A stretch of DNA of 64,000 nucleotides, from the NCBI GenBank assembly GCA_026874595.1, contig CM049306.1:44206019-44270018 (forward strand), written 5' to 3'. Below, piece by piece: positions 1-57,508 of this stretch. Each line of letters opens with the position of its first letter. Position 1 is the stretch's first letter. A program made the translations under genes and the position numbers. Below the pieces are notes generated by a model. That model was not told the origin of the DNA, searched no databases, and saw only the letters and a program-made list of their open reading frames with translations. This DNA is from Sipunculus nudus (taxonomy: Eukaryota; Annelida; Sipuncula; Golfingiida; Sipunculidae).

Positions 1-1287
1 GAGAGCACACATCCTAGACAGGTTTCATTTAAAGAAGATATATCTAGTTGGGCAAAACTTTTTTAACATACGGGGCTGTCATGAAACGCTTGAAATCTAA
101 GAAATATCCCTTCACCCAGGTGCTCAAAGGGCCAAATAATGCACGGATGTGGCATTTCTGTGCGTCGGACGCAGGTATTCTGTTGTTTACACACAGCAGC
201 AGCACCTCGGGATCAGGTACATCATGGCTCATACAAACGCACTTGAAAACAACAAAATAGCCGTTGAAAAAAAAACCCCGACGAATTATATCAAAGCAAT
301 TTATCCCTGAGACACCAGGTTATAAAAATAGTGATCAGGATGAAATGTCTTGACTAATATTTAAGATACAATGTTTACTAGAGGATATGACCTAAATAAG
401 ATGAAAAAACACGCTCGTGATGGGTACAGTTAAATTTCATGCAACTAGAGAATGCTTCTTTAATATTATAGTAAATATCTAATCAACCAGAGCGCCACCA
501 TTGAGCGTGCACCTCAACTATAGCGTAAAAAAGTACAAAAAAAAATATTCCACAGCTTTAATTCCTATAGAAATAACAAACAAATGTACATGTATTTAAT
601 TCTTGAATTTCTGTCTTGTTTTCTAGAGCTCTTAATCTGTTTCCATTATTTCTATTTATCATTATCGACATCAAAGGTTTCTTATTTAAACGTAAGAAAA
701 CATGTTCTATATATATTATAATATAATCAATTTAAATAAGAAAAAATTGATATTACAGAATTTTCACGTTAAATCTAGTTGAAGGATTTAAAATTTTTGT
801 ACATGTTTATCGACATTTTTTTTCTCTGCTATACCTTTCTTAAGAAAATTATAATAATAATTTCTGCCTCTCGTGAGTACTTACTTGAGATATATTAATT
901 AAAAATCAAAGACATATGCTGACAGACAAACAAACTGACAGAGAAAGAGACAGTAAGACAAACTCCCAAACATGAATCTGATGCACATATGGGCCGGAAT
1001 TAAGTCCAAACCACATGAAGACATTCTTCCCACACAAACTAAAGCAAATATAATAAAATAAATCGGTGGCGACGAAAAAATACTTAACCAATACAACGGC
1101 ACGGATACCTTCTTGCTCCAAGTATTCGTGACAATTTGCCATATGGCAACATTTACTTCGTGAGAGGAGCACATAGTTTGCCTTATCCATTAATAAAGGC
1201 ATCCCGAGGCTGAAGGACAGCTTGAAAGATCAAGAGGGAAATAGAACGAGTGCACAGGTTTCACATTTGTGTTTTTTTTTTCACCAG

Positions 1288-1520
1288 TGAACGAGTTACC
1301 ACTGGCTGAACAGTTAATAAAAAAATGTTGCCTGTCTGGAGCATGTGACGCGAGAGAGCTAAAACTACCACTTGGTATTTTAGGACATAGGGAAGAAAGG
1401 CTGGGTTCTGTGGATAATATGGTACACAGTACTTGTGATAGGCTTCTGACTCTAACAGTTGTGACAGTATCCCGTAAGCCTCTACATTTTAAGAAGCCAT
1501 ACGGGGATTTGGATGAATAA
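1288..1520 (+). other. Weak exon-like open frame in copy A, unrecognised
   Basis: A run of T followed by CACCAG ends at 1287 and looks like a 3' splice acceptor. After it, one frame stays open for about 77 codons to a TAA at 1518. The frame includes the peptide LAEQLIKKCC and ends KKPYGDLDE. The same frame is open in copy B (48544-48776), with two amino-acid changes and one silent change that I can see. The opposite strand is also open over the same bases, and the copies are too similar for conservation to mean much. I do not recognise the protein. It could be a chance open frame, or an exon of a gene broken elsewhere. Confidence 0.15.
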
Positions 1521-2086
1521 TTTAACACACAATTTATATGTGTTCATGTATATATGGTAGCCTGTGTCAGTTCGGTCTGTCAGACGGTATGCGTCTGTAT
1601 AGATTGGTTAAAATTCCTCTTGAGGACACGTAAATTTCTAACCCACTTTGGCACACCATTAAGTATAACTCTTGGGAGGATCAATATAAGCAGTAAGCTC
1701 AAATTGTACATAAAGCCATAATACTGTACTTACCTGGAGATGGCGTATATCTTGTTCAATTATACCATTTATATATATTGAGTCCTAAATTTCTTCTGAT
1801 CATCTGTGCCAACACGTCCTTTCAGTTGCGCGCGAATGCTTTGAATAGATGGTCAAACCCTCATTGCGTAAGCTGATAGGTGGACGGTTCATAATGAATG
1901 CTGTTCATTGGTCTGTTTTTTATCCTTTTTTATAGCAAATGGGAATCATAGATTAATCAAATTGTCAAAGCTTATCAAGGCTATTCATCCGTGTTCATTT
2001 CGTTGTTTTTTTTGTTTCATTGTTTATAGCTATATCATAAGATAATTTCAAACCGATTTAGACGACACTTTGTATAGAGATGGGAT

Positions 2087-2320
2087 ATGGTAAAGGAGGA
2101 TCCCTTCGTGCGTATCTGGAAAAAAAGTGCAGCAAAATATTTTTTTTTCCGAGGTATATCGATGCCACTCTACTTGTTTTATTTTAATGTGACATGTTTA
2201 TTTTTTCTTTACAATAAGAACCACTTTTTTTCGGCGTGGAATAATAACCCTTGTCCTGCGCTGTCTTCTCGGACCTTGGATCTGTCCCTGTTGTCCATCA
2301 ACATTCAGGAGAGTCCTTAA
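2087..2320 (+). other. Open frame starting MVKEDPFVRIW (copy A), unrecognised
   Basis: An ATG at 2087 opens a frame whose first residues are MVKEDPFVRIWKK. They resemble MPKDDPVVRVWMK at the start of the small gene candidate at 22466: the aligned positions are identical or conservative almost throughout. Copy B has the same start at 49343 with a silent change in the proline codon. After the conserved start the frame runs into T-rich sequence and looks non-coding; copy B terminates soon after. It may be a pseudogene, or a first exon whose continuation I cannot find. No function can be assigned. Confidence 0.2.
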
Positions 2321-3048
2321 TGGAGAGTGTGATCAGGTTCCAATCAGCGATAATTACCGACAGATAGTGGCTCCGACAAGACAAGAAAGCAACCTAATGG
2401 CGCCAATTAGATTCAGAAGTCCTGATGGCGTGTTTCTAATGACGGCCCTAGACCAGCCAAGTGTCGTTTGTTTAAATGGACGGTCTGGTTGTTAGAAAGA
2501 TTATCAAGCGCTGTAAATTAAGGACAGGAGGAATGGGAATCCTTAGATATTTTCCTGACAAAGTATCATATTTGTCTCTGCGTGTGATTTATCCCTCCAG
2601 GGTGTGTGCTCTGATCTTGTAACTTTCTTGGAGATCACCCTTCTCGTGGAGTGGTAATGTCGGGACACTTGGCATCTTGTTTTCTCAGTTTGGGCTCTGT
2701 GCAGCTCATCTAGTCCGCGTGAACCAAATTAACTCCCCTTGAGAACCAAAGGATAGGCAATAAACCATAATTGTTTGCCCGAAGTAGCTCTCTGCGTCAA
2801 CTTAATTACTGATGTTTAATTCTGACGAAATCACAGTTTCAATCATAGGAAAGGTAGATAATTAATTGGAGGCTGTGTCAAATATGTCGTGGACCAATTG
2901 TCTGTGAAAGTATACGTTTAGTGGATTGACAAAGAATATGAAAATATGGAAATAAATAAATCAGTCATCGACAGTGTTGCTGATTGATCTATGTGGTTTA
3001 AATGTATGTTAAAATGTATACACAAAAGTAAAAAAATAAATGCAACCA

Positions 3049-3066
3049 CACACACACACAAACATA
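3049..3066. repeat. Short (CA)n microsatellite
   Basis: A CA run at the same relative position as the run in copy B near 50306-50321. It was therefore present before the duplication. Confidence 0.7.
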
Positions 3067-3477
3067 CCTCGATCACCTTCCCTAAGGGTTTATGATAAAA
3101 AAACCCAAAAAGCGCTTAACATAAAAGATTAACTCTTCTTGGCTCACAAAAACAATCAGTGAAACTGGACAGAGATTAATTTGACGTTTTTTATTTAACA
3201 CACAGACGTGCAATAAAATCTTGTGCCTAGAACTTTGAGCATTTTAAAAGGTAATTGGTCCATTTTGGTAAAAGACCCAGTCCTCAAAAATGAAAATCTG
3301 TGCTATCAATTACTTTAGTAAATTGATCTGAAGTCTTTAATTCTATTTCAACATTTAGAATAAAAAAAATAAATAATAATACCCCCATATCTTGATCAAA
3401 AGCCCGGTATCGGCTAGTAGTAAATATACTCAATTCAATCTCCAGTCTCTCGTTTTAAATAGTGCCGAATCATCCAT

Positions 3478-3746
3478 TAGCCTTTTCTACTGATATACAG
3501 TCATCCTCGCGTATTCTCCAATGCGGTATTTATGTCATTTTACTCACTTGTTCTAACATTAATAAACAGTCATTTTACTCGGCCGGATCTTTTGAAATTA
3601 AAGAACCAGCCTTTAGGCTCTAACATTCCAAATCAGTCACTGTCTTTTCGTGTTCTACGATGCGGAATAAGTTATTTTACTCTCGAGTTCTACAATTAAG
3701 AGTTACTGACCTTATCTTTTATCTAATAGTCAGAACCAGTCATTAT
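3478..3746 (+). repeat. Degenerate ~35-bp minisatellite, part 1 (copy A)
   Basis: Imperfect tandem units built on TCATTATCCTCGCGT, then TTCTACAATTAAGAACCAG. Unit length is about 35 bases and the units have drifted. The array is interrupted at 3747 by the SINE at 3758-4130 and resumes at 4142. Confidence 0.8.
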
Positions 3747-4141
3747 CCGCTTTTCTTTTTTTTATATTTAATTATTTTTTTAAGGCTATCTTAACTACAC
3801 ATATGAACATCTGCAGATTTCCATTCCGGTTTCGGACTACGTGACAGGGCAGTATCACACGCTTCCTCTCATTTTATATCCTGGCGTTAACCAGGCCCGT
3901 TGACTATTGCACCTGGGGGCCCTGGGTGTGTAATCGTCCCCATTGCTAGGTCATACCACCGAGGAGCCCCCGAAAGGCGCAATCGTTTGTGAGTGAAACC
4001 TTCCCATTAAGCATGCAGAGCGCTCACCCTGGTTTGGGGCCGAACGTGAAAAATCTCACCGCCTCGGCTAAGATTCGAACTCACGATCTCCCGGCTTTCA
4101 GTCCTGCGCTCTACCCCTGAGCCACAGATGCCGCTTTTCTT
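3747..4141 (-). mobile_element. tRNA-derived SINE (copy A) with 11-bp target duplication
   Basis: Read on the minus strand, the head contains an A-box-like TGGCTCAGGGGTAGAGCG and a B-box GAGTTCGAATC, the two internal RNA polymerase III promoter elements of a tRNA. A tRNA-unrelated body of about 250 bases and an A/T-rich tail (3758-3790 on the plus strand) follow. The body is flanked by the direct repeat CCGCTTTTCTT (3747-3757 and 4131-4141), so element and flanks fit retroposition. Copies at 55145-55498 and 61901-62261 are the same insertion carried by duplication; 33148-33297 is a separate degenerate member. Around 4000-4040 copy A differs sharply from B and C, as if that internal piece had been replaced. 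The anticodon arm does not pair well, so it is not a working tRNA gene. Confidence 0.88.
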
Positions 4142-4850
4142 CAATACATTATAAGTCGTCATATCGACTCCTACAAGTAAGAATAAGTCATTTTCATGAC
4201 ATTATTCACAATTCCGAATCAGTCATCATCCTCGCGTTTTCTAAGATTAAAAAATGGTCATTTTCCAAAACAAATCGTTACCTTCGCGCCTTCTGTTATG
4301 TAGAATAAGTCATCATCTTTAAGTTTTCTGCGGTTAAGAACCAGTCTCTCTCAGGTCTTCTACAATAAACAACAAGTCATTATCTTCATTATTCTACAAT
4401 TAACGGCCAATCATTATCCTGGCGTCTTCTATAACTAAGAAGGAACAAGCAATTATCCTCGCGTCATTTTCAATTGAGTAAATGTCATTAAAATTTCATT
4501 ATCCTCGCTTCTTCTACAATACATAGTAAGTCATTACACTCGCTTCTTGGACATGATCAACAAGTCATTTTACTCGCGTCTTTTACAATTAAGAACCAGT
4601 CAACAACCTCGTTTCTTCTACAATTAAGAACCAGTCAACATCCTCGTGTCTTCTGCAATTCAGAACTAGTCAACATCTTCGTGTCTTCAACAATTAGGAA
4701 CCAGTCAACAGGAACCAGTCAATAATCTTGAGTCTTCTACAATTAAGAACCAGTCAACATCCTGGTATCTTGTACAATCAAGAACCAATCAGCATCCTTG
4801 TGCCTTCCACAATAAAAAAGCCAGTTAACAAACTCTTGTCTTCTTCAATA
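4142..4850 (+). repeat. Degenerate ~35-bp minisatellite, part 2 (copy A)
   Basis: This continues the array after the SINE. Units are clearest at 4560-4800, where TTCTACAATTAAGAACCAGT plus CAACATCCTCGTGTC recurs every 35 bases or so. A short internal duplication of AGGAACCAGTCAAC occurs near 4700 in all three copies. The far end is shorter than in copies B and C. Confidence 0.85.
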
Positions 4851-6431
4851 TAACCCAATGGTAAAAATAAAATCTGATGGGAGTTGAGTCAATATTTAAC
4901 CAAATATCAACCTATGTCAATTTTCATTCAAAAATATAGATTTTATTTCAATATACTGCAGATTGACTTAATTCAAGGACAGATTTCAAAGACACTTTGA
5001 AACACATTTTCATATTTAAAAAGCGTGATGATTTCTGGCTGGATAATTTTTACTTGTAAAAATGAAAAATAAACGGAACCATGTGGAAAGATGGTTTTGT
5101 TAAGAATTACTTATTTCCGTGTCTTAAGTTACATATTCTAATCAATATAGATGAGCTGGTTTCGAGTCGTCATATTTAACTAAATGAAAGACGAGACTCT
5201 CATATATATGATACGCATCAATACTGATAAAAAGGCATTCTGGGAATCAGCAAGACGTCGAAACATCTCGGGACCCATGGGGTTTCATTCTCAGATATGT
5301 CACATCTGTCTCTGATAGAGTTGTGCACCTGTCTCCGCAAGACATCAAAATCTCTCCCTCGAGAGAGTTTGTTCTCGGAGAGCAATTCTCATGGAGCACG
5401 TTTCACATTTCTATATACCTGTACTTTTTCCAAGGTCCCCGGATGTCCAGTTTGGGAAAAAATATCTTGTTTCTTTATAAATGAATCGTCCGAATCCTGT
5501 GAGATGTCATGTGTGAATTTCTTCAACACCTGAGTGCTTAGCGCTGTCAAATTTTGGGATAAATCGACTCGAAAGAGCAAGAAGAGTTCAATTTATATGA
5601 AATTCCAAGTAATGAATTTACGTATACAATATAGATCGATTAACAGATTTCAAGATTAATTCATTAAAAATAAATTTGATCTCCAATTAAACTTTAACAT
5701 TATGTTCATTTTTCAAACAATTTGCGTGAATAAAAAAAAAAAACAAACAAAACAAACAAACAAAAAATCCCCGTCTGCATTACATCTATTTTCTTTTTAT
5801 TTTCTATATATAAACAATCAGTTAAAATTACAGTAAGATTGCTTGTGTATCCACGTCTAATTACTTTTACATTGCAGCCTGCACGCGGTCCCACAACTGG
5901 TCGGGCTGCCATCCAAATCTTATGAAAACCACGGAAATGGGATTGTCTGAAAAACAGTGATCACTGTTTGTGACATAATGGTCACCGGCAAATGAAAACA
6001 CACTTACAAATTCAAGCTGATTACGGCAGTCGATACAAAGTCGACGTCACTAAAAAAACTACCAGAAAGTACTGTTCAGTCATACGGGGAAGACTTCATT
6101 CAACTTATTTTAACGGAACTAATTTCAATGAATTAAAAAAATTAATTGGACCCTGAATATATTCGCAGAATATAATAATACAGATACGGGACACATTGAA
6201 CGCAAACGACTTAAAATGAATCAAAATATTGGTATATGCAAAGGTCATGTAATTTCCCATCAGTCTATGTTAGAAATGGTCCCACACATGTTGTCATGGA
6301 AAACAACTGTCGTGACCTTTTCAGCAATACACAGCCTTTGAGTAATTAGACAGAGATTCAGTTAAAATATAAATATTTAATGAACAGACGTCTCAGGACA
6401 GCACATTAGCATGTTCAGCCTTCATGACATT

Positions 6432-23284: not shown

Positions 23285-23590
23285 ATGTTTCCGTGGAGCA
23301 AGACTCGATCCCACTTTGGACGTATAAAAGTACATAAAAGCTGTATCGCTTAAAAGAATGTTAATAATGTAATTTCAAAATGACAGAAGCAAATAAACCC
23401 TTTAATGAGAAAGAAATCAAACCAATCTATATTTCTTTGTCCGCCTAGAATGGCCGTCTGCTGTTTGCCTGCAGGTTGTAGTGAAGTCACATACGTCTGT
23501 AGTTAAGGTGTACTTAGGGCGAACACATTTATAATTCGGAACGGACTGGGGTACGGTGGCTCGTATAGGACATGCACGAAATTATTTTTT

Positions 23591-23848
23591 ATCACGTTCC
23601 CACGCGATAGTATCTCGTGGCCACGCGAAAATTATCTCGTTCCCACGAGATAGTATCTCGTTCCCACGCGATAATTATCTCGTTCCCACGCGTTAGTATC
23701 TCGTGGCCACGCGATAATTATCTCGTTCCCACGAGATAGTATCTCGTGGCCACACGATAATTATCTCGTTCCCACGAGATAGTATCTCGTTCCCACGCGA
23801 TAATTATCTCGTTCCCACGCGTTAGTTTCGCGTGGCCACGCGTTAGTA
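23591..23848. repeat. Left arm array of 21/22-bp palindromic units
   Basis: Units vary at set positions: GTTCCCAC versus GTGGCCAC in the centre, GAGAT versus GCGAT or GCGTT after it, and TAGTA versus TAATTA as the joint. The alternating joints give a 43-bp higher-order period. Confidence 0.9.
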
Positions 23849-24535
23849 TGCCATGCTATAGCTCAAACCCTCATTTGGACAAGAATGTCTGTGGTCTGTT
23901 TTATATCGAGCGTCGATGCAGCTTGAATTGTTTGTATGTGTTTCGTTGTATGTGTGTTTGCGCCGAATGCTTTTAGGTAAATTTCAGCAGTTTTCATTGC
24001 CTTGGTTCACCATTTCATTGCGTTGGTTCAACTAGCCCATTTTTATTTGTTCATGGAAAACTGTATTGAGTTTGTTTTAGGGTAAGGGTGATATAAACCC
24101 TTGTGTACCAAACATAAATGAAGCTGAAACACTTGTTTCTATTTTACCTTCCCAGAAATTTTATTTTTTTAGGACTAGGGTTGGGGTTATTTAATTTCGG
24201 GTATACCGAACAGGGTAAACAACATGTCGGTTTGTGTTATGTCTCAAGAAAGAAGCTAACAACAAAGGTCTCAGCCATGCCACTTCATTATGACTAGGGG
24301 GAGGAGTTAAGAAGACCTTTTTACGAGAAATTTGCTCATTCTTCCCCCTTCACATTTTTCTTTCTACAATAAAACTTCAGTTATGTATTCATAGGCGGCG
24401 AAACCGTTGGGGGGGGGGGGGGGCGCGGGGGCCGAGCCCCCCCCCCCCATAATTTTTTTCGGGGGGGGGGGGGGGCTGAGCAAACATAATGATGGGTATA
24501 AAAACATGTAATATTATTATTGGGTATTTGCACCC

Positions 24536-24536
24536 T

Positions 24537-24599
<63 letters not shown>
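24536..24599. repeat. (CA)n followed by (TA)n microsatellite
   Basis: CA at 24536-24550 continues as TA at 24551-24599. The same CA-then-TA arrangement recurs at 32869-32920 in another MITE. Confidence 0.95.
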
Positions 24600-24601
<2 letters not shown>

Positions 24602-24633
24602 TCTTCTGCTCAGTACTTGGAGTACCATATATA

Positions 24634-24915
24634 CAGGGCCGCAGACTCCGGGATTTGCGGTGAAAAAGTTGATATTCTATGTGAAAATGAATCCATTGCC
24701 AGACAATTAACAAATAATCTCCCTACGAGGATCGAGGTACTGTTTCACTTAATAAGCATTGACCAATAAAATGCACCAGAATGCAGTAGTACCCATACAG
24801 TTTTCCAAAATTTTCAAAACCTTGAGAGGATGAGACCCCCTCCCAACCACCCCCCCCCCCGTCGGGGACTACCCCATCAAATCCCCCCCTGCCATTTGTG
24901 TCAGGCTACGGCCCT
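24634..24915. mobile_element. Small MITE with AGGGCCG(C/T)AG ends, nested
   Basis: CAGGGCCGCAG at 24634 pairs with CTACGGCCCT ending at 24915. Such ends are common in hAT-type MITEs. The inverted repeat is short and I found no target duplication. Confidence 0.4.
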
Positions 24916-24921
24916 TTTTTT

Positions 24922-25089
24922 ATAAATATATATATATATATATACATATATATATAAATAATAATATATATATAATATATATGTATATATAATATATATA
25001 TAATATATATGTATATATAATATATATATAATATATATACTAGTATATATATAATATATATTATATATATATACATACATATAAATATG

Positions 25090-25124
<35 letters not shown>

Positions 25125-25140
25125 ACATATATATGTATAC
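24922..25140. repeat. TA-rich complex microsatellite
   Basis: Repeats of TATATATAA and TATATGTA, with several local palindromes, partly at a period of about 34 bases. Confidence 0.9.
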
Positions 25141-25454
25141 TATTTGGGTATAATATTGGGCCCCCAATGAAAATTTGGTTTCGCCGCCAATGGTAATTTA
25201 TATTGTGAAAATTTATTATGAAAAATATTTTACCGGAACTAGCCCCCCCCCCCCCCCCCTTTCCCCGCTCACACATTCTCCAGACAAACATGGCCCACGA
25301 GTGTTGTACGAGTGCCCGTTGTATCATTTCAGGTCTCAGCATATTAATTCCATTCTAAATTCATGCAAATAATTGACCATAGTCTTCATCCAGTGTATAG
25401 AAGCATGCCTCAAGGATTTAAGATGTAGGTCTTACTGTATTATCTATCTACATT

Positions 25455-25581
25455 TATCTCGTTCCCACGCGATAATTATCGCGTGGCCACGCGATAGTAT
25501 CGCGTGGGAACGAGATAATTATCGCGTGGCCACGAGATACTAACGCGTGGGAACGAGATACTATCTCGTGGGAACGAGATA
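25455..25581. repeat. Right arm array of 21/22-bp palindromic units
   Basis: This is the inverse of the left array, with about six units. CGCGTGGCCACGCG occurs at about 25490. The right array is about half the length of the left, so the arms have changed size independently. Confidence 0.9.
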
Positions 25582-25931
25582 AAAATAATTTTGTGCATGT
25601 CCTATACGAGCCACCGTACTGGGGGTCCCTGACACTGGGAAACCAATATGAGTTAACAGATCATTGAAGAGCCCTCACAGAATGCATAAGAGGCTTTTAG
25701 TTGATAAATACTCGTGACCGAACTCCACAATGTAACACTTGGCTGAACTGTTTTTTGGACGAGTTTACCAGACCATTAACCGTCATACGGTCATAGAAGT
25801 TCCATTTCCATATACTTACCTTGTTGTTCAATATCCGGGAAATGTGTCAAACCAAAAAAATAAGTATAAAAATAAATAATTATAATGAAGATGGCCTGTA
25901 CAATTATCATAATTGTCTGCTTTTACCATGG

Positions 25932-28815
25932 CAGCATAATGAAAATGTAGGGCTTAATTTTCAACAAGGCAAATGAAAATCTATCTTACATATTATATAA
26001 AAAACAGAAAGATTTAAGAATATTAGAAATAAGTCTCATTTTACAACATGTCAGACCGACTTATGGCGGTCAAGATCTATGGTCTCATGCGAAAATAGCC
26101 TCATTTGACAGCTTCTGATTGGATGTTGTCATTTAAAAACTGTAGAAACTTATAATCAGCTAAAACAACGGTCTCTACTCCTGCAGAGACACATCTGATC
26201 GGTCAGAGTCCAAAAATATTGTGGAATATTTTCTGGATATTTATTGTAAAATTCTTATTTTCCATATTAGGCCGTTACTTTCATATGCAACTTTCTAGGA
26301 AATAATTGAAGAAAATATAACTATAAAATCTTAAGAAAATTATAAACTAAAGCAGGTGGACAAGGGTTGGTGAAACAGAGTCTAATAAAAACACGAATTG
26401 CACCCAGAATGTTTATTATGGACGCTTTCTCGCTGGGACTTTATCACGGCGGTATAACAAATTTTTTGGTCGCAAAATACAATTACATCGGGTCCCCGAG
26501 TGGATGACTTATACCTCGTTTGAAAACAACAGGATGGTCAATGTATTACTTGCCTAGATAAGAAGCAAGTCGTCTCTGATGAATCTCTTAAATAACCATA
26601 ATACCAGTTCAGTTGAGGAAAAGGATTAAGAATTTCTTACCATATCAAGGACGTCTCCGAACACAGTTCTATACGGACCGTCTGGTAAGACATTTCATTA
26701 GACTGCGATGGATTTATCATATAACATAATGAAAATGACAGTTACCGAAAGCTCCTAAGCATCAAAAAGCAAGGTTAGTTGACTATGGATTAAATTACAA
26801 TTTTTGGTAGAAATATTTATTTTGCAGTTGTGACTGATTGATGGCTGTTCAAATAATACCGACCGTAAAAATTAAATTTTACTTGGTTTATGGCTGTCAG
26901 GTACAAACTTTTTAAAAAATCCTCGTGATGTTTCTCATCCAATTCACGTAAGTATATAGGTCTAGTATTGTACTTTGAAACGATAAATGAAAATGGTGCT
27001 TAACGTGCGTCGAGCGCCTGACACGATAGTGACTACCATATCGAAAAAAGAAACTGAAATTCAGAATTTTTACATTTCACTTAAATCGTGAAAATTACTG
27101 CTGAGCGAATCTGCGAAGTCAGATCGTCCCAAGTCTCAATTCCCACAGCTTTAGTGTCTGTAAAACCTTGAAACTCATTTTCTTTCTCCACGGCTGGGGT
27201 ATTTACACCTGGCCTTTCTCACACCCAGAACACTTTCCAATGATATGGACGAACAGATTCAACTGTAAACTACAGAGACTGCTCCAATACATAAGAGGGC
27301 CTCTGACAGAACTAAACTTTAAGAGAATAATACGAAAAAAGATTAGCTCAACCACAAATAAAAATATTAGAAGCTGCTTCGAACTCCGATTTTTCAAAAC
27401 CGATTCATAACTTTTCAAGTAAAGTAGCTCATATACAATTCAATCATCTCGCGCAACAAAATAATTTCTCTCAGATCGAGGAAAAAAAGTGACCCAAGGT
27501 TCATGATGCTCAGCTGACTAGAAAGACATTCCCAAGAGGAAATTTATCATCTGAATGCCTAATTTTGTAGGTGGTATCCCCATTCAACTGTAGAAATAAA
27601 CAGGAAGAAAAATTCCAGTATAATATGTCCAGCCATTCCACTATTATCAAGCCTTTTTGTATGCAGGATGCTGAGCTAAAAATGACCATGCACATTTACA
27701 TGAACATCACTGGATGTCAAGACAGAATATTCTAGGTCTAACAGGAAACTTTGACTGGAGATCTGCCTTGGACCTCCTTGGTTGTGAAGCTGGAAGATTC
27801 TAGATCTAACGGTTACGATTTGTGCCATGTTAACGACTGCTTCATCTGAATGTCTCAAAACAGAGGAAAAATGCGTTAAAATAAGAAAAAAGTACAGGTG
27901 GCGCCAACAGTCTTCAGGAAAAGATGAAACACTCCATGATCAATATGCATGAAAAAAACCCATGGCAATCAATGCATTAATTTTTCAGATACTAAAGCGT
28001 TTGTGACAAATTTTAAAATATTCTGGGGGGGGGGGGGGGGGGTAATTTTGAGCCCAAAAGTTCGGAGAATATAGGTCACAATGACCGAATTTCAGGTTTC
28101 CAATTAGCTTTTTTATGGACGTCCACTGGTGTTTACAACGTGAAAAGATTTTAGGCCTAGCGGTACAAGTTGTGTCTAATATGACTGACCGGGTGCTCAC
28201 AATCATGTTTTCCGCCTGAAGTTTGCAATTATAGGTCACCATGACATAATTTCAGGTTTAAAAAAAGACCTCTCTGAGTTAGAAGTTTCTAGGTCTAACG
28301 GTTATGATTTTTGTCCTGTTAACGGACTGTCTGCTTCATCTGAAGGTTTTAAAAATAGAGAAAAAATATTGCGTAAAAATCAGAAAAAAATTACAGGTGC
28401 GCCACCAGTCGTCAGGTAATGAAAAAAACACTCCATGATCAATTTGCATGGAAAGAATCGTGGCAATCAATGAATTAGTAATTCAGTAACTGGAGATTTT
28501 GTATCAATTTTTTTACCTATATTTATATTCGGGTTACTTTCGAGCCCCATAGCTCAGAGGATGTAGGTCACAGTGACCTAATTTCAGATTTCAAAGGAGC
28601 ATTTTATGGACATTATTTGATAAGTTAAAATATTCTAGTTCCAGCAGTTAGGATCTGCGCCCTGTTCACGGACGTACGGACAGGCGTACGGCACGACGGA
28701 CACATGGATGGACGACAGAATAGGGTGATTGTTATAGCTCAGGTGACTTTCAGTCAGCTTAGCTAAAAACAAACGGCGGCCTGAAAGCATAAATATACCC
28801 AAGATGAAGTCTCTA
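25932..28815 (+). repeat. Dispersed repeat family R2, copy 1, with a nested element
   Basis: The stretch matches 38272-40232 in the same orientation through many shared landmarks, including GCAGGTGGACAAGGGTTGG (26353) and ACGGCGGCCTGAAAGCATAA (28773). A reverse fragment of the same family lies at 60900-61090. Relative to copy 2 this copy carries an extra segment, 27489-28765. Divergence is clearly higher than between duplication copies A and B, so this is an older repeat. No protein frame survives in both copies. The type of element is unknown. Confidence 0.85.
27489..28765 (+). mobile_element. Pearl/Helentron-like element with ~500-bp core repeats, inserted in R2
   Basis: Two core units lie about 499 bases apart; for example CAATATGCATG at 27941 and CAATTTGCATG at 28440. 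Shorter blocks such as AGGTCACNATGACNTAATTTC recur at 28073, 28232 and 28566. The core is followed by ACGG-type repeats (CGGACGTACGGACAGGCGTA at about 28670) and an imperfect hairpin, AGCTCAGGTGACT..AGTCAGCTTAGCT, at 28735-28764. R2 copy 2 lacks the whole segment and joins GAGGTAAAA to the ACGGCGGCC flank, acting as an empty site. A G18 run occurs at 28025-28042. I infer a Helentron-related non-autonomous element by architecture only. Confidence 0.7.
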
Positions 28816-38271: not shown

Positions 38272-40232
38272 GCAACATAATGAAAATTTAGGTTAAAAGA
38301 TTAAGGGTCTAAATTTCAACAAGGTAAATGAACATCTATCTAACATATTATTTTAGAAAAAGAAAGATTTAAGAATATGAGAAATTAGTCTACATTTTAC
38401 AACTTATCAGCCCGACTAGTGGCGGTAAAGATCTATGGTCACATGCGAAAATAGGCTCATTTGAGAGCTACTGATTGGATGTTGTCATTTAAAGATTGAA
38501 AAACAATACGACCAGCTAAAACAAAAGTCTTTACTTATCTGATCGGTTATAGTACACAGAGATGTGGAACATATACTGGACATTTATTGTAAAATTCTTA
38601 TTTGCCATATTAGACCGTCACTTCCATGTGCAACTTTCTAGGAAATAATAAAAAAAAAGAATTAAATAAATTTTTATGAAAATAAAATCTAAAGCAGGTG
38701 GACAAGGGTTGGTGAAACAGAGTCTAATATAAACACGACTTGCACCCAGATATTTTTTTTTATTATGGACGAATCCTTGGGCTTATCATGGCAGTATAAT
38801 ACATTATTTGGTCGCAAAATACAATAACACAGGGTCCCTGAGTGGATGACTTATACCTCGTTTCAAAACAACAAGATGATCAATGTATTACTTGACTACA
38901 TAAGAAGCAGGTCGTCTATGATGAATCTATTTAATAATCATCATAACTGTTCAGTTGAGAAAAGATAATGAAGGATAATGAAGTTTTAACCTTATCAAGG
39001 ACGTCTTCGAACACAGCGTTGTATACGGACCGTCTGGTTGAAAATTTAATTAGACCGATGTATTTATTATATAACCTAATGAAAATGGCAGTTACCGAAA
39101 GCCACTAAGCATCAACAAGCAAGGTTAGTTGACTGTGGAGTAACTTACAATTTTTGGTGAAATATTTTTTTTTTGCATTTGTGACTGATTGATGCTTGTT
39201 TCCATTATACAGACCGTAAAGTTTAAATTTTACCGGGTTAATGGCTGTCAGGTACAAACTTTTTATTAAATTCCTTATTGTTTCTTATCCAATTCACATA
39301 AGTATTTAGGCTTGCTTGGCTCTGAACCGGGAAATGAAAATGGTGCTGAACTTGCTTCAGGCTCCTCAATATCTCACACCATGGTGACTACCTAATCGAA
39401 AAAGAAACCGAAATGCAGAATTCTTATATTTCGCTTAAATGGTGCAAATGCCTGCTGAGTATATTTTATCTGCCGAAAGATTCATGTAACCATATACCAT
39501 TTTATGTGACAGTGTAATTACCAGCTGTCATTGAATGTGCTGCTTTAACATGTGTTTTCCAAGTTTCCCAGATTGAATGTTCAAAATCCGAGACAAATAA
39601 GACGTCTCAAGTCGCAGGTCGAAGACAGATCGTGCGAATACCAAATTCCGACAGCTAGTGTCTGCAAAACCTTGAAACTCATTTTCTTTCTCCACGGCTT
39701 GGGTATTTAAATCTGGCATTTCTCACACTGTGAACACTTTCCAATGAGATGGGCGAATAGATTAAACTGTAAACTACAGAGACTGCTCCAATACCTAAGC
39801 GGGCCTTTGACAGAACTCAACTTTAAGTCAATAATAAAAAAGAAGATTCGTTACAAACACAAATAAATATACCATAAGCTGCTTCGAACTCACATTCATG
39901 TGAATACATAAACTATCTTATAAATATATTTGGATCAACACCGTATGTTTTTGTTAAAAGCATTCTTTACTTTTTAGATTAGGTACCTTAAAAAACTACC
40001 TTGGTCTGCATGCCGATAGTGCTGAAAATTAATGTCAGCCCGTTTGAAAATCCTAACACACATATACCTAGATCGACTTGGATTCATCCTTTTTTTTTAA
40101 ACCGATTCGTAACCTTTCAAGTAAAGCTGCACACATACAAATTCAGTTATCCCGCCCCACCAAAAGCTTAGGGCGAGGTAAAATTTAACGGCGGCCTGAA
40201 AGCATAAAGATACCAGAGACGAGGTCTATATT
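38272..40232 (+). repeat. Dispersed repeat family R2, copy 2 (empty site for the 27-kb element)
   Basis: This is colinear with 25932-28815 but lacks the pearl/Helentron-like segment. It also has 182 bases (39900-40081) missing in copy 1, bounded by ATTCAT at 39894 and 40082. That may be a small insertion with a 6-bp duplication or a deletion in copy 1. Several small indels separate the copies and no shared coding frame was found. Confidence 0.85.
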
Positions 40233-47019: not shown

Positions 47020-48543
47020 TATCATTTTATAGATACAAAAAAGACACTGTAAGAATGAATGTTGGGTGTATAAAAGAACCTCTCTTGTGGTGATCTCGGT
47101 TGGTTTAATACAAAATCTAATACAAAAAGGAGATGAACCCAAACATCGGGTACATAAATATCTCTTTTTTTACTATATCACGTGGATCGTTAAGTATAAT
47201 GCCAGTTTTTATAATCTTCTATTAGCTGTGAAATGTTACACTGGTTTTTTTTTAAAAGCAGATGGGAGAGAACACATCCTAGGCAGGTTTCCTTTAAAGA
47301 AGATATATCTAGTTGGGTAAAACTCTTTTAACATACGGGGCTGTCATGAAACGCTTGAAATCTAAGAAATATCCCTTCACACAGGTGCACAGCGGGCAAA
47401 ATAATGCACGGATGTGGCATGTCTGTGCGTTGGACACACGTATTCTGTTGTTTACACACACAGCAGCACCTCGGGATCAGGTTCATCATTTCTCATACAA
47501 ACGCACTTGAAAACAACAAAATAGCCGTTGAAAAAAAACCCGACGAATTATATCAAAGCAATTTATCCCTAAGACACCAGGTTATAAAAAATAGTGATCA
47601 GGATGAAATGTCTTGACTAATATTTCAGATACAATGTTTACTAGAAGATATGACCTAAATAAGATGGAAAAACATGCTCGTGATGGGTACAGTTAAATTT
47701 CATACAACTAGAGAATGCTTCTTTAATATTATAGTAAATATCTAATCAACCAGAGCGCCACCATTGAGCGTGCACCTCAACTATAGCGTAAAAAAGTACA
47801 AATAAAAATATGCCACAGCGTTAATTCCTATAGAAATAACAAACAAATGTACATGTATTTAATTCTTGAATTTCTGTCTTGTTTTCTAGAGCTCTTAATC
47901 TGTTTCCATTATTTCTATTTATCATTATCGACATCAAAGGTTTCTTATTTTAAACGTAAGAAAACATGTTCTATATATATTATAATATAATCAATTTAAA
48001 TAGGAAAAATTGATATTACAGAATAATCACGTTAAATCCAGTTGAAGGATTTTTCATTTTTGTACATGTTTATCGACATTTTTTTCTCTGCTATACCCTT
48101 CTTAAGAAAATTATAATAATAATTTCTCGTGAGTAATTACTTGAGATATATTTAATAAAAAATCAAAGACATCTGCTCACAGACAAACAAACTGACACAG
48201 AAAGAGACAGTAAGACAAACTCCCAAACATGAATCTGCATGCACATATGGGCCGGAATTAAGTCCAAACCACATGAAGACATTCTTCCCACACAAACTAA
48301 AAAAAAAATAATAAAATAACTCGGTGGCGACGAAAAAATACTTAACCAATACAACGGCACGGATACCTTCTTGCTCCAAGTATTCGTGACAATTTGCCAT
48401 ATGGCAACATTTACTTCGTGAGAGGAGCACATAGTTTGCCTTATCCATTAATAAAGGCATCCCGAGGCTGAAGGACAGCTTGAAAGATCAAGAAGGAAAT
48501 ATAACGAGTGCACAGGTTTCACATTTGTGTTTTTTTTCACCAG

Positions 48544-48776
48544 TGAACGAGCTACCACTGGCTGAACAGTTAATAAAAAAATGTTGCCTGTCTGGAGCAT
48601 GTGACGCGAGAGAGCTAAAACTACCACTTGGTATTTTAGGACATAGGGAAGAAGGGCTGGGTTCTGTGGATAATATGGTACACAGTACTTGTGATAGGCT
48701 TCTGACTCTAACAGTTGTGACAGTATCCCGTAAGCCTCTACATTTTAAGAAGCCATACGGGGATTTGGGTGAATAA
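48544..48776 (+). other. Weak exon-like open frame in copy B, unrecognised
   Basis: This is the counterpart of 1288-1520, again preceded by a T run and CACCAG. Visible changes are one silent (GAG-CTA for GAG-TTA) and two replacements (R to G, D to G). Confidence 0.15.
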
Positions 48777-48844
48777 TTTAACACACAATTTATACGTGTT
48801 CATGTATTTATGGTAGCCTGTTTCAGTTCGGTCTGTCAGACGGT

Positions 48845-49132
48845 ATGCGTCTGTATAGATTGGTTAAAATTCCTCTTGAGGACAAGCAGATTTCTAACCC
48901 ACTTTGGCACACCATTAAGTATAACTCTTGGGAGGATCAATATAAGCAATTAGCTCAATTTGTACATAAAGCCATAATACTGTACATACCTGGAGATGGC
49001 GTATATCTTGTTCAATTATACAAATTATATATACTGGGTCCTAAATTTCTTCTGATTATCTGTGCCAACTCGTCCTTTCAGTTGCGCGCGAGTGCTTTGA
49101 ATATATGGTCAAACCCTCATTTGGTAAGCTGA
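48845..49132 (+). other. 95-codon frame intact in copy B, broken in copy A
   Basis: The frame starts MRLYRLVKIPLEDKQ. In copy A the matching stretch reads into a stop right after the E-D codons (GAGGACACGTAA). A downstream stretch around 49585-49783 (…DGVFFNDGPRPAKC…) is likewise open in B and frameshifted in A by one T. No family is recognised. Either a decaying gene or a chance frame would look like this. Confidence 0.15.
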
Positions 49133-49342
49133 TAGGTGGACGGTTCATAATGAATGCTGTTCATTGGTCTGTTTTTTATCCTTTTTTTATAGCAAATGGG
49201 AATCATAGATTAATCAAATTGTCAAAGCTTATCAAGGCTATTCATCCGTGTTTATTTCGTTGTTTTTTTGTTTCATTGTTTATAGCAATATCATAAGATA
49301 ATTTCAAACCGATTTAGACGACACTTTGTATAGAGATGGGAT

Positions 49343-49414
49343 ATGGTAAAGGAGGATCCTTTCGTGCGTATCTGGAAAAAAAGTGCAGCAAAATATTTTT
49401 TTCCGAGGTATACG
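49343..49414 (+). other. Open frame starting MVKEDPFVRIW (copy B)
   Basis: The same start as at 2087. Here the frame ends within about 25 codons, after KKSAAKYFF. Confidence 0.2.
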
Positions 49415-50576
49415 TTCTGATCGATGCCACTGTACTTGTTTTATTTTAATGTGACATGTTTATTTTTTCTTTACAATAAGAACCACTTTTTTCGGCGTGG
49501 AATAATACCCCTTGTCCTGCGTTGTCTTCTCGGACCTTGGATCTATCTCTGTTGTCCATCAACATTCAGGAGAGTCCTAAATGGAGAGTGTGATCAGGTT
49601 CCAATCAGCGATAATTACCGACAGATAGTGGCTCCGACAAGACAAGAAAGCAACCTAATGGCGCCAATTAGATTCAGAAGTCCTGATGGCGTGTTTTTTA
49701 ATGACGGCCCTAGACCAGCCAAGTGTCGTTTGTTTAAATGGACGGTCTGGTGGTTAGAAAGATTATCAAGCGCTGTAAATTAAGGGGAGGAGGAATGGGA
49801 ATCCTTAGATATTTTCATGACAAAGTGTCATATTTGTCTCTGCGTGTTATTTATCCCTCCAGGATGTGTGCTCTGATCTTGTTTCTCTCCTGGAGATCAC
49901 CCTTCTCGTAGAGTGGTAATGTCGGGACACTTGGCATTTTGTTTTCTCAGTTTGGGCTCTGTGCAGCTCATCTAGTCCGCGTGAACCAAATTAACTCCCC
50001 TTGAGAACCAAAGGATAGGCAATAAACCATAATTGTTCGCCCGAAGTAGCTCTCTACGTCAACTTAATTACTGATGTTCAATATGACGAAATCACAGTTT
50101 TTTCAATCATAGGAAAAGGTAGATAAATTGGAGGTTGTGTCTATGTCCTGGACCAATTTGTGAAAGTATACATTTAGTGGATTCACAAAGGATATGAAAA
50201 ATATGGAAATAAATAAATCAGTAATTGACAATGTTGCTGATTGATCTATGTGGTTGAAATGTATGTTAAAATGTACAAAAGGCAAAAGTACAAATAAATG
50301 CAACCACACACACACACACAAACATACCTCGATCACCTTCCCTAAGGGTTTATGATAAAAAAAACCCAAACAGCGCTTATCATAAAAGATTAACTCTTCT
50401 TGGCTCACAAAAACAATCAATGAAACTGGACAGAGATTAATTTGACTTTTTTTAGTAAACACTCAGACGTGCAATAAAATCTTGTGCCTAGAACTTTGAG
50501 CATTTTAAAGGTAATTAGTCCATTTTGGTAAAAGACCCAGTTCTCAAAAATGAAAATCTGTGCTATCAATTACTTC

Positions 50577-52340
50577 ATAAGATACCAGTATATTGATAAC
50601 TTTATATAACTTTATTGTACACACACACAGAGAAAGAGAGAGAAACAGACAGACAGAGACAGACAGACATGATAACCTTATTGAAAAATGAAATATCTCA
50701 TATAACCTTCTTAGTATGTATGCTGCAGATGGTTACAGATTAAATATACTGTGAATAACACAACCGAACCAGACCAAAGCCAGCTCCAGATTCAGTAATA
50801 CAGGCCTCGAGTATGTTAATCCACAAGTAAACTTTGTGGAATGTCTTTACGGCCCCGTCGAATAACAGTCAGACTTCTTATTTCAGGACATAAACTGTTC
50901 TTGTACTGCCCGGTCTGCCTTAATCCGGAAGGGTTCATCCTGTAGTGACAGTGCTATCATTACTCTAGGCTCACAATTACATGGCTCACAAACTGGTCTT
51001 TTCAAGGTTTAGTCATGAAGAATAGGTTAAAATTACATATCCTCTTTTAATTTTCTGAATGACAACAAAAATAAAAAAAACAGGCATTGTAATATATAAA
51101 CGAGACTTTAGTTGTCGTCTTGCAAGAGGATATTTAGTGGAGATTGCTTCATGGAACGTGACAACGTTTGTATAAGGTTAAAAATGTTGGACTTTGAAGT
51201 TGTTTGTCCGTAGATTAATCTTCGTCAGAGCCGTTTTGTAAATGACAAACTGTCATAGGAGCCTTTGTGCTCCGGCAGCCGCCAAGACAATTGACTTAAT
51301 TGAAAAGAGCTTCAGTTTTTCACTTCGACTCCTTATGAACGAGTGTGATTTCTGAAGTTTTTTTTAAAGAAATACTGGAGGATAACCAGGAATACATTTT
51401 GCTATCTTCATATGCAGTCACTACTGCTCAGCTGCATGATTATCGTTCAAGATCAAGCGACATAATTTTCACCACATATGGGCGACAACATAATGCTTCG
51501 AATAATTCCCCATTGCTATGCTGTCCAAGACATGCCTAGCACTATAAAAAGTAATTTCCTGACTTTCCGGAATTACTAGCGATATTCCGAGCCATAATTT
51601 TGACATAATACCTAAGACATCAAGATTAAAGTGTGTATTCAAAACGGCAGCCCTCACGAGTGGTTTCGAGAAACTACAAGAAATTAAGTGCATGTCAGGG
51701 GTGGGTAAAGGCACTGGGATGCGACAGGAAAGTACTCTGAGAACAGCGTTTAGACGGATTTTTATTCGGCGGAGAGTGTTAGTGGCAAGGGAAGTATCGG
51801 CAAAGTTTAGGACGGAATAATACTGATTTGAACCACGCCCAACTATTCATATTCATAAAGTATGATTTTATTTGACAAATGTAGCTTACTATTTAAAAAC
51901 CAGCTTAACAAATAAAAGATAAGAGACAAACTGAAACTGTATACATCCCATTTATACGTGTCAATTGTGCACACTAATTTGTAAATAATGTTTAAATTTA
52001 AAATTGAAACCTTCAAGGCTATGGAAAGCAAAGAAAACTGAACATTCTTTATCTATTGATATTTTATAGAATTATTTCAAGTGTGTCAAGAACTTTTATT
52101 TTTTTTCCTGACAGTTTTACTTCTTCTTTATATTTCTAATATATTTTATAATTAACGCTCAGGAATCAGCGTAATGACTTTTAATTCAACCGATATATGT
52201 TTTTTTCATCCGTGTTACTTTTTGCAAATTTCGCACAGAGTAATGAGTCAAGAAAACTGTTTATGTGAATAAGCAGATTATCATTTATGATATAAATAAT
52301 AATAAAACTATGATAACAACAACAAAAACAATGGTTATAA
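50577..52340. other. Left part of the B-specific block
   Basis: It begins where A and B part company after GTGCTATCAATTACTT. It has CA, GA and CAGA microsatellite runs at 50618-50670 and otherwise no recognisable gene. No inverted ends were found to mark the whole block as one transposon. Confidence 0.5.
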
Positions 52341-53488
52341 CAAGGGCACCGCAAAGCGGAGCATCCCCTCGCATGGGAGCATAATGATATGGATTGTATT
52401 ACGAAGGTGTTAAAATGAGGAGGGGAGGTGTGTGAGCTTGAGCTTTGACGTCAAACTCAATAAGTTGTACGTGTATCGGTGGGTGAGGCATTTGTGCGAG
52501 ATGAAAGGTTTTGGTCAAACGGTTTGGCTTGAAATAGATCCACAAGCTTTTTCAAAAAGTGGGTGCTGTGGCCGTGACCTTTGACCCCATGACCTGAAAA
52601 TCAATAGGTTTCTTCATCTATGGTTCGGTGCCCCATATGTGCGAGATAAAAGGTTAAGGTCAAACGGTTTTGCTTAAAATGGGTCCACAAGCTTTTTCAA
52701 GTAGTGGGTGCTGTGGCCGTGACCTTTGAAGCCGTGACCGCAAAATCGATAGGTTACTTCATCCACGGGTGGGTGAGCCATGTGCAAGATGAAAGGTTTA
52801 GGTCAAACGGTTTTGCTAAAAATGGGTCCACGAGCTTTTTCAAGAAGCGGTTGTTGTGGTCATGACCTTTGACCCGGGACCTCAAAATCAATTGGTTTCT
52901 CCATTTATGGGTGGGTGAGCCATATGTGCGAGATGAAAGGTTTAGGTAAAACGGTTTTGCATAAAATGGGTCCACAAGCTTTTCAAAGAAGTGGGTGCTA
53001 TGGCCTTGACTTTTGACCCCGTGACCTCAAAATCAACAGGTTTCTTCATTTATAGGAGGGTGAGCCATTTGTGCGAGATGAAAGGTTTAGGTCAAACGGT
53101 TTTGCTTAAAATGGGTCCACAAGCTTTTTCAAGAAATGGGTGCTGTGGCCGTGACCTTTGACACCGTGACCTCAAAATCGATAGGTTTCTTCATCCATTG
53201 GTGGGTAAGCCATATGTGCGAGATGAAAGGTTAAGGTCAAACGGTCTGGCTTGAAATCGATCCACAAGCTTTTTCAAGAAGTGGGTGCTGTGGCCGTGAC
53301 TTTTGGCCCCGTGACCTCAAAATCGACAGGTTTCTTCATCCATTGGTGGGTAAGCCATATGTGCGAGATGAAAGGTTTTGGACAAACGGTTTGGTTTAAA
53401 ATTGATCCACAAAGCAATTTCGGACGGACAGACGGACGGACAGACGGAAGGACGCACGAACGGAGGCGTTACTATATCCCTTTCGCAA

Positions 53489-53490
<2 letters not shown>
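52341..53490 (+). mobile_element. Pearl/Helentron-like element with ~145-bp core repeats
   Basis: The leader GGGCACCGCAAAGCGGAGCA contains a small hairpin (CCGC..GCGG). From about 52430 to 53410 some seven units of 143-145 bases follow, marked by (C/A)GTGAC(C/T)TTTGACCCC at 52573, 52718, 52861, 53005, 53150 and 53295. After the core come GGACGGACAGACGGACGGAC-type repeats (53424-53455). Leader, long tandem core and ACGG-type microsatellite is the described plan of bivalve pearl elements. No coding frame spans it; apparent frames follow the repeat. The 3' hairpin was not identified with certainty. Confidence 0.75.

Positions 53491-53491
<1 letters not shown>

Positions 53492-53531
<40 letters not shown>
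53492..53531. repeat. (GA)n microsatellite
   Basis: Forty bases of GA directly after the pearl-like element. Confidence 0.95.
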
Positions 53532-53535
<4 letters not shown>

Positions 53536-54397
53536 AAGACGGACGAAATTCAATTTGGGCGAGAAAATTCATGTTTTACCGCAGCGGGAAATTCTATTCC
53601 TAACATTGGTGCTATAAGCCTTGGCTGGAGCTTTTATTATATTTTCACAAATTATGACTGAAAAAAGAATCTTTATCCTTCATCCATCTATTATCCTATA
53701 CTGATATCAGCGAGATAACCCTCACGGGGCACGTATGTGATTGTATATATACGGCTGTGAGTGATCGCGCTGTCACTGATGGTATGGTATGTTTGACTGC
53801 TCTGACGTATCAAAGCAGACGAAGGATCGCCAACCTCAAGAGGAGCTCAAAAGATCGCAGCAAGTCTGCGCTGCAGCTCAATCATGGGGAGTGATATATT
53901 GTATTTCTGTATCCCCAACGGCGATCTGAGCGAGAGTTTGTCCTACCTTGAAGGCTAATATCATCTTGAAACCCAGATTGGAGTCTGAAGGTGACTTTGC
54001 TTGTCCATGATTGACTGTTTTCTTTTATTTACACTCTGCCAAAAGGAAAATTCTATAAAAATAATGTGTTTGCCTTTGAAAATATAAATTACATTGTCTC
54101 TTCGCCATGTTCAGACCCCATGCCTTCCAGGAAATAACATAATTACGTCATTATATATCTTGTGCTAGAACATGAAATATTGATCCGCGCAACTGCAAGG
54201 AAAATAATCGATGAGAATCTTACTTATTTAGAAATAGCCCACAGATAACATTGTTCTTCTGTCCATCTTCTCGCTGTCAGACAAAAGTATGTTCTGTCAC
54301 CATGGAAAAGTGGACTGCTGGCTCCCTAGTTTTGGTGCAACCTCCGTATACCCAACGTCGCCTTTCTCTTGTTAGGCCTAATATCATGAATCTGTAG
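53532..54397. other. Right part of the B-specific block, no gene seen
   Basis: Moderately GC-balanced around 53750-53950, without a recognisable frame or paired ends. Confidence 0.45.
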
Positions 54398-54867
54398 TGT
54401 GTGAAAAAGCGCCTTACAGTGCTCCGCTCTACCAACCTATGGCGGGTCCAGACCCCTTTTGGTTCCGCTTCTTTCATATCTTCCTTACATCACCTAGCCT
54501 TTGTCTGTCTAACAATAATAATATATGTAACCAGTCAAAGACCTTCGAAAATCTGAATACCCACGCGTCCCATTTCGGTTTGCAAATGTAAATATCATCA
54601 CTGACCAGGTCAAGGTAAAACCGACAGATGCATAAATTTCTAGCCAAGAGCGCAGCGCCACAAAATAACTTTAAAAATATATGTACATGTCTTATTAAGA
54701 CAGTGTTCTACTGAAAAATTATATTTCATTTCAACATTTAGAATTTAAAAAAATGAGCCAACATTCTTCATTTCATTTAATACCCCAATATCCCGAACAA
54801 AAGCCCGGTATCGGCTAGTAGTAAATATACTCGATTCAATCTTCAGCCTGTCGTTTTAAATAGTGCC

Positions 54868-55140
54868 GAATTATCCATTAGCCTTGTGTACTGATATACA
54901 GTCAGCCTCGCGTTTTCTCCAAAGCAGTATTTATGTCATTTTACTCACTTGTTCTAAAATTAATAAACAGTCATTTTACTCGGTCGGATCTTTTGAAATT
55001 AAAGAACCAGCCTTTAGGCTCTTAAATTCCGAATCAGTCACTGTCTTTTCGTGTTCTACGATGCAAAATAAGTTATTTTACTCTCGAGTTCTACAATTAG
55101 GAGTTACTGACCTTGTCTTTTATCTAATAGTCAGAACCAG
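54868..55140 (+). repeat. ~35-bp minisatellite, part 1 (copy B)
   Basis: Counterpart of 3478-3746. Confidence 0.8.
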
Positions 55141-55144
55141 TCAT

Positions 55145-55498
55145 ATTTATCTATATTTTTAATGCTATCTTAACTACATATATGAACATCTGCAAATTTC
55201 CATTCCGGTTTAAGACTACGTGACAGGGCAGTATCACACGCTTCCTTTCATTTAATATCCTGGCGTTTACCAGGCCCGTTGACTCCTGCACCTGCGGGTC
55301 CTGGGTGCGTTATCGTCCCCATTGCTGGGTCATACCATCGGGGAGCTCCCGAAAGGCGCACTCATTTGTGAGTGAAACACGGCCGTTGGGCACGACCTGG
55401 GTGGTAGCCGACCGTGAAAAATCTCACCGCCTCGGCTGAGATTCGAACTCACCATCTCCCGGCTTTGAGTCCTGCGCTCTACCCCTGAGCCACAGAAG
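55145..55498 (-). mobile_element. tRNA-derived SINE (copy B)
   Basis: The same insertion as at 3758-4130, with the B-box GAGTTCGAATC and A-box TGGCTCAGGGGTAGAGCG on the minus strand. The right target repeat survives as CCGTTTTCTT (55499). The left one is lost with a small deletion. Confidence 0.88.
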
Positions 55499-55508
55499 CC
55501 GTTTTCTT

Positions 55509-56400
55509 CAATGCATTATAAGTCGTCATATCGACTTCTACAAGTAAGAATAAGTCATTTTCATGACATCATCTACAATTCTGAATCAATCATCATCCTC
55601 GCGTTTTCTAAGATTAAGAAATGGTCATTTTCCAAAACAAATCGTTACCTTGGCGCCTTCTGTAATGTAGAATAAGTCATCATCTTTAAGTCTTCTGCGG
55701 TAAAGAACCAGTCATTGACTCTCAGGTCTTCTACAATAAACAAAAGGTCATTATCTTCATTATTCTACAATTAACGGCCAATCATTATCCTGGCGTCTTC
55801 TATAACTACGTAGGATCAAACAATTATCCTCGCGTCTTTTTTAGTTGAGAAAAAGTCATTAAAAATTCATTATCCTCGCTTCTTCTACAATACATAGTTA
55901 GTCATTACACTCGCTTCTTCGACATGATCAACAAGTCATTTTACTCGCCTCTTTTACAATTAAGAACCAGTCAACATCCTCGTTTCTTCTACAATTAAGC
56001 AATTAAGAACCAGTCAACATCCTCAGTCAACATTCTGGTGTCTTCTGCAATTAAGAACCAGTCAACATCTTCGTGTCTTCTACAATTAGGAACCAGTCAA
56101 CAGGAACCAGTCAATAATCTTGTGTCTTCTACAATTAAGAACCAGTGAACATCCTGGTATCTTGTACAATCAAGAACCAATTAGCATCCTTGTGTCTTCC
56201 ACAATAAAAAAACCCATCAACAAGCTCTTGTCTTTTTCAATTTAGAATCAGTCAGCATACTCGTGTCTTCTACAATTAAGTAATTTTTTTTTTAAAATTA
56301 GTCATCTATCTCTCGTCTTCTTCAATGTAGAAGAAGACATCAGCCTAGTTCGCGTCCTCTACAACCCATAACAATTAACAACACTAGACCAATCCGTTGA
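55509..56400 (+). repeat. ~35-bp minisatellite, part 2 (copy B)
   Basis: Longer than in copy A. Extra units between 56220 and 56370 are shared with copy C. Confidence 0.85.
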
Positions 56401-57464: not shown

Positions 57465-57508
57465 AAAAAAAAAAAAAAAAAAAAAAACAAGCAAACAAAC
57501 AAACAAAG
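57465..57508. repeat. A-rich (AAAC)n-like run
   Basis: The counterpart in copy A at 5731-5768 has a different length. Confidence 0.85.

Follow-up and report, generated by a model that had tools for sequence, protein, structure and literature searches.

A fold-back element with dyad-array arms in Sipunculus nudus, probably a non-autonomous IS3EU transposon

Ends and anatomy

The element described here spans 2,067 bp (23552-25618 of the window, i.e., the whole stretch of 64,000 nucleotides of Sipunculus nudus DNA that was analysed) and is one member of a multi-copy, gene-less mobile family in which two inverted arms surround a core. The 6-bp direct repeat CTGGGG is present on both sides (Table 1). 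Its most probable identity is that of an IS3EU-type (IS3EU/GingerRoot) DNA transposon, non-autonomous and in fold-back form. Fold-back form and IS3EU are each already known; no publication joining the two was found in a literature search (Repbase/Dfam may catalogue the family). If the assignment is right, the fold-back form extends to the IS3EU superfamily.

Table 1. Features of the window copy, in window positions.
Feature	Position	Strand	Remarks
Left target-site duplication	23546..23551	.	CTGGGG, same letters as 25619-25624
Left terminal inverted repeat (stem)	23552..23589	+	starts TACGGTGGCTCGTATAGGACATG; inverse complement of the right stem
Left arm	23590..23846	+	12 dyad units, TATCTCGT-N4-ACG(C/A)G(A/T)TA, 21/22-bp spacing
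Core	23847..25454	.	no frame of at least 120 aa; simple repeats and inner inverted repeat
Right arm	25455..25581	-	6 dyad units, the innermost one flipped
Right terminal inverted repeat (stem)	25582..25618	-	ends AGCCACCGTA
Right target-site duplication	25619..25624	.	CTGGGG

The left and right stems measure 38 and 37 nt, respectively (an earlier note on this DNA had given 40 bp), and are inverse complements apart from a single substitution and a length difference of one T in a poly-T stretch. A 24-mer of the stem occurs twice in the window, namely at both ends of the element. The form of an element end can be written as the pattern TACGGTGGCT-N6-GGAC. The ends placed previously at 23551 and 25619 are each one base too far out: the copies set the start of homology at TACGG, and the shift arose because the outer GTAC is palindromic and masks the border. 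The TGGG that had been taken for a 4-bp flank is part of the duplicated CTGGGG. The fold-back element itself is real, stems, arms and core being common to 16 full copies with defined ends; the alignment of full copies proposed in that note yielded the TACGG ends and the 6-bp duplication. With long inverted arms of tandem repeats around a core, the element has the structure of the fold-back class.

Read from stop to stop, the window copy has no frame as long as 120 aa; its core has a homologue in each of the 15 further full copies. Simple repeats in the core are enclosed by an inner inverted repeat, GGCGGCGAAACC (24394-24405) and GGTTTCGCCGCC (25177-25188), which the majority sequence of the copies has too; the segment 24394-25188 is perhaps an old nested element.

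A family of copies

The host assembly searched (G000) comprises 1.43 Gb in 153 contigs. It contains 256 exact matches to the 23-mer end TACGGTGGCTCGTATAGGACATG (121 + 135), vs. 0 for the reversed control. A 114-nt query from the left arm gave 822 first-look candidates, 40 of which were scored. Both ends are present in 15 of the 20 stretches fetched, i.e., 16 full copies with that of the window. They have ends, arms and core in common, a mean pairwise identity of 0.943 (about 0.94) and a departure of 2-6% from the majority sequence.

The 6-bp target duplication is exact in 28 of the 37 copies examined, the chance expectation being one pair in 4096. In the first set it is exact for 12 of the 16 full copies; L025 has one mismatch in six, L021 and L027 have one additional base beside an end and no exact 6-bp duplication, and L028 has an 8-bp repeat instead. 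Among the first 100 of the 256 ends listed, at least 27 plus/minus pairs lie within 5 kb; 6 of these pairs were already in the first set and the other 21 are 19 further pairs, L038 and L094/L095. The duplication is exact in 15 of these 19 (the four failures match at 3, 1, 1 and 4 of 6 positions), and for one of the four, L066/L067, an exact 6-mer is found outside a doubled end. It is exact for L094/L095; the flanks of L038 show no match, and the right one also reads as a unit array.

Four ends diverge after 20 nt: L063, L081 and L082 are diverged relatives with arms, and L080 runs into other sequence. The three relatives keep the first 20 bp of the end; the array of L082 is longer, with many different centres.

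It is hardly credible that the arms are independent satellites flanking a unique sequence by chance. Their number of units does vary between copies, and some satellites of C. gigas are annotated as IS3EU-related (table of PMC8268682), but the same stems and the same core bracket the arms in 16 full copies, with target duplications outside. For this element the copies rule out such an origin, and free arrays would be a later escape only. The oyster satellites concerned, CgiSat35 and CgiSat47, provide a DNA/IS3EU assignment in a mollusc (PMC8268682); their monomers, of 690 and 129 bp, respectively, differ in length from the unit described here.

The right stem is a fairer test of divergence than the left stem or the left array, because the first 15 copies were selected by their left-arm match. 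It differs from the majority sequence in 4 of 576 cells, vs. 459 of 11726 in most of the core (Fisher p = 5e-6), a core figure that misaligned simple repeats may inflate; when only the left portion of the core is used for comparison, p = 0.005. With CpG sites set aside, departures are somewhat fewer in the left array than in this left portion (p = 0.013, with the first 15 copies picked by that arm), and the right array shows no higher conservation than it (p = 0.26).

Assignment to IS3EU

The superfamily is inferred from the ends and the duplication alone: the assignment is made because the TACGG..CCGTA ends, the 37/38-nt stem and the 6-bp duplication match published IS3EU elements. The latter always have TA..TA termini and usually 6-bp TSDs (PMC10045372); those of rust fungi have 6-bp TSDs, TIRs of more than 30 bp and TAYGG..CCRTA ends (PMC12730594). 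Each of these properties is found here, i.e., TACGG..CCGTA termini, TIRs of 38/37 nt and a 6-bp duplication, exact in the proportion given above. The differences are that the copies read here are without transposase and that long dyad-array arms have no mention in the passages of PMC10045372 and PMC12730594 compared.

An origin in another superfamily with 6-bp duplications, e.g., GingerRoot taken apart from IS3EU or a derivative of Polinton, would make the TACGG ends a coincidence and is judged rather unlikely. Polintons have AG.. ends and carry integrase and polymerase genes. The duplication length agrees with them, but the TACGG ends differ and the copy has no frame as long as 120 aa, so that membership is rejected. 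Polinton-like copies are nevertheless present in the host genome, and no partner gene for the fold-back element was found in the 5 of 147 rve_3 loci examined. Polinton likewise gives 6-bp TSDs, and GingerRoot has 6-bp TSDs with ends mostly TA..TA (PMC10045372). Against this, TACGG..CCGTA ends with a TIR of more than 30 bp fit the description of IS3EU (PMC12730594), which is the assignment preferred here.

The search of the genome with the rve_3 profile gave 147 matches. No transposase gene with these ends was found among the 5 loci examined and the two longest end pairs, an absence that means little; the other 142 matches (L031-L035 included) lie outside that set. Three of the loci (L036, L042, L043) are Gypsy-like and two (L040, L041) are Polinton-like; the two longest pairs examined, L037 and L038, considered as candidate autonomous elements, belong to the same family with inserts (frames judged by eye). 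None of the 8 window ORFs of at least 120 aa has a Pfam match. PF24764 may be an IS3EU domain.

It must be noted that L040 and L041 (C3) are Polinton-like elements with open frames, with many similar matches listed, and that the best rve_3 matches are mostly on small contigs (C106, C110, C118, C128, C134, C135), which may be bacterial.

Arms built of dyads

The arm unit is a 20-bp dyad, TATCTCGT-N4-ACG(C/A)G(A/T)TA, repeated every 21/22 bp. The units of 21/22 bp with a 43-bp higher period reported earlier were recovered by measurement: in the window copy, one unit follows another at a distance of 21 or 22 bp, and two make up 43 bp. The left arm does have about twice as many units as the right one (12 vs. 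6). With at most one mismatch and on both strands, CTCGTTCCCACG has 12 matches vs. 0.06 expected and CTCGTGGCCACG has 11 vs. 0.03 expected, the latter being near self-complementary so that some sites are counted twice. The unit arrays are not due to chance. Of the 18 dyad matches in the window (at least 10 of 12 half-site bases), 17 are inside the element.

In the 16 full copies, 8-14 units were detected on the left and 4-16 on the right, and a distance of 21 or 22 bp separates neighbouring units in 320 of 331 cases, the remainder being mostly due to missed units. Among 196 left and 173 right units, the half-sites TATCTCGT and ACG.G.TA hardly vary, positions 5, 16 and 18 excepted. Variability is highest at the first two bases of the centre (0.9-1.1 bits), and positions 16 and 18 (1.0-1.3 bits) vary almost like the centre in current copies. 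For the three diverged copies (22 units in all, L082 providing 14), the four positions of the centre have 0.4-0.9 bits vs. 1.0-2.0 elsewhere. As arm units are related by descent, all these position statistics are descriptive and are not tests.

The alternation of centres, which to the earlier note looked maintained, is loose in the window copy. With A for the centre TCCC and B for GGCC, the left arm reads ABAAABABAAAB (odd units A, even units B or A) and the right arm, taken inward, AABAB followed by one A in flipped orientation. The half-sites, and not the TCCC/GGCC alternation, are what is kept: they persist under varying centres, including in the diverged copies and in the sister family described below.

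It had also been suggested that the arms hold transposase-binding sites. They are indeed built like rows of protein-binding sites; the binding itself is what we infer for the dyads. A spacing of 21.5 bp is, by arithmetic, about two helical turns. Alternatively, the dyad arrays might be passive tandem repeats spread by slippage or unequal exchange, or might act only via hairpins or cruciforms. This is possible, though doubtful. The number of units differs among copies as given above, the left arm folds strongly as a single strand (z = -10, 0 of 200 shuffles as good) and fold-back arms are known to seed satellites, as in Tetris (PMC4079207). On the other side, spacing is kept, half-sites outlast changes of the centre both in the three diverged copies and in the sister family (suggestive only, since units are related by descent), and selection for hairpins alone should also hold the centre complementary, which TCCC is not.

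The likeliest account is that an IS3-like transposase would mobilise the element in trans, with the dyads as extra binding sites, by analogy with the binding domain of Galileo. A DDE (IS3-like) transposase made elsewhere would recognise the TACGG ends. The dyad rows of both arms, with dyads about two helical turns apart and presumably on one face of the DNA, would assist it. The transposase would then pair the ends, move the element (by cut-and-paste or copy-out) and insert it with a stagger of 6 bp. Beyond the anatomy, all steps are put forward in this conditional sense. The account is favoured by the near-constancy of the right stem and by the sister family described below; against it weigh the 9 copies in which the 6-bp duplication is not exact, the right array at non-CpG sites and the variability of positions 16 and 18. 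If right, the family is a natural test of the function of fold-back arms, in which half-sites hold sequence and phase while centres drift.

P-type elements have target duplications of 7-8 bp. With a 6-bp duplication and no transposase seen, membership of the Galileo/P superfamily was rejected. Galileo, FB and Tetris share with the present family long inverted repeats with internal tandem repeats of variable number (PMC3688188, PMC4079207), and some repeats of Galileo bear transposase-binding sites, as demonstrated for the binding domain (PMC3688188). Galileo belongs to the P superfamily (PMC3688188), whereas ends and 6-bp duplication point here to IS3EU; the repeats of Tetris are about 220 bp long (PMC4079207) vs. 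a 20-bp dyad at 21/22-bp spacing here.

Unit and stem strings gave only chance matches in print, with unrelated titles (Leishmania metacaspase; rabbit haemorrhagic disease virus antibodies). The unit pattern has 0 matches in viral contigs and 2 single matches, in bacterial bins, in a collection of genome contigs, where about 4 are expected by chance (estimate).

Nested copies and a sister family

Two ends in the same orientation within 12 bp are found at 10 sites genome-wide, vs. 1 for the backwards control and about 0.5 expected: 5 belong to the family itself (L067, L029, L028, L088, L013), 4 to a sister family (L083-L086) and 1 to a diverged relative (L087). Copies from both families sit inside the last ~16 bp of the ends of other copies.

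The end of the sister family is TACGGTGGCTGATTTAGGACAC, the first 10 bp of the TIR being shared with the main family. In L084 and on C13, its arms contain TATCTCGTGATCTCGAGATA and CATCTCGAGATCTCGACATA, dyads set at a distance of 21 bp. Their form, ATCTCG-N6-CGAGAT, has the same half-sites with a new centre, and an A/T-rich array lies alongside. Sister loci (L083-L086, L089, L090) are on C4, C7 and C13, with copies nested in each other's ends.

In the five main-family loci listed above, the last 10-16 bp of a terminal repeat either hold another copy of the family or are found doubled. Three nested cases were read on both sides. In L029, a copy is nested in the terminal repeat of another with the duplication CGAGCC; the outer repeat of the resident is GCTTT (5 bp exact, within a T run). 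Nesting is likewise seen for the sister copy at C13:51547924 (duplication TAAATC, outer repeat CAACTTC). L028 is a nested copy in a terminal repeat with its 8-bp repeat. L067 has a doubled end within the outer duplication CCTATC, which may reflect the recombinational loss of a nested copy. For L088 and L013 the left end was not found in the stretches read, and a sister copy on C7 has one doubled end and no clear duplication.

Uniform targeting would lead to 0.0004 such events (256 ends of 16 bp, 128 insertions, independence assumed). The ends may attract insertion; those doubled ends for which no nesting was observed could also stem from some other route of terminal duplication. New insertions of IS30 and IS911 similarly target the ends of resident copies (PMC9333248). 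IS30 inserts beside the IR and forms IR-IR junctions (PMC9333248), whereas insertion is within the TIR here; a 6-bp duplication accompanies two fully read nested cases, a third having an 8-bp repeat. That two related families have repeatedly inserted into their own termini suggests an IS30/IS911-like targeting rule in a eukaryote. We tentatively propose, as a less probable extension, that in an animal-type genome an IS3-like transposon lineage would direct new insertions to its own ends: a stem-bound transposase, perhaps along the dyad arrays, would mark resident copies, and the arrays would be loading platforms in at least two families with different spacers. Such self-targeting, if true, would be the eukaryotic counterpart of bacterial IR-targeting.

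Other repeats of the window

Large duplications occupy 1-6431, 47266-58171 and 61185-63843 of the window. Positions 1-3315 correspond to 47266-50575 (95%), and 3345-6431 to 54778-58171 and 61468-63843 (about 89-94%). A tandem array at 52478-53412 has 6.5 copies of a 145-bp unit. Two dispersed repeats, 25949-27386 and 38304-39891, are 81-86% identical, and the first adjoins the element on the right.
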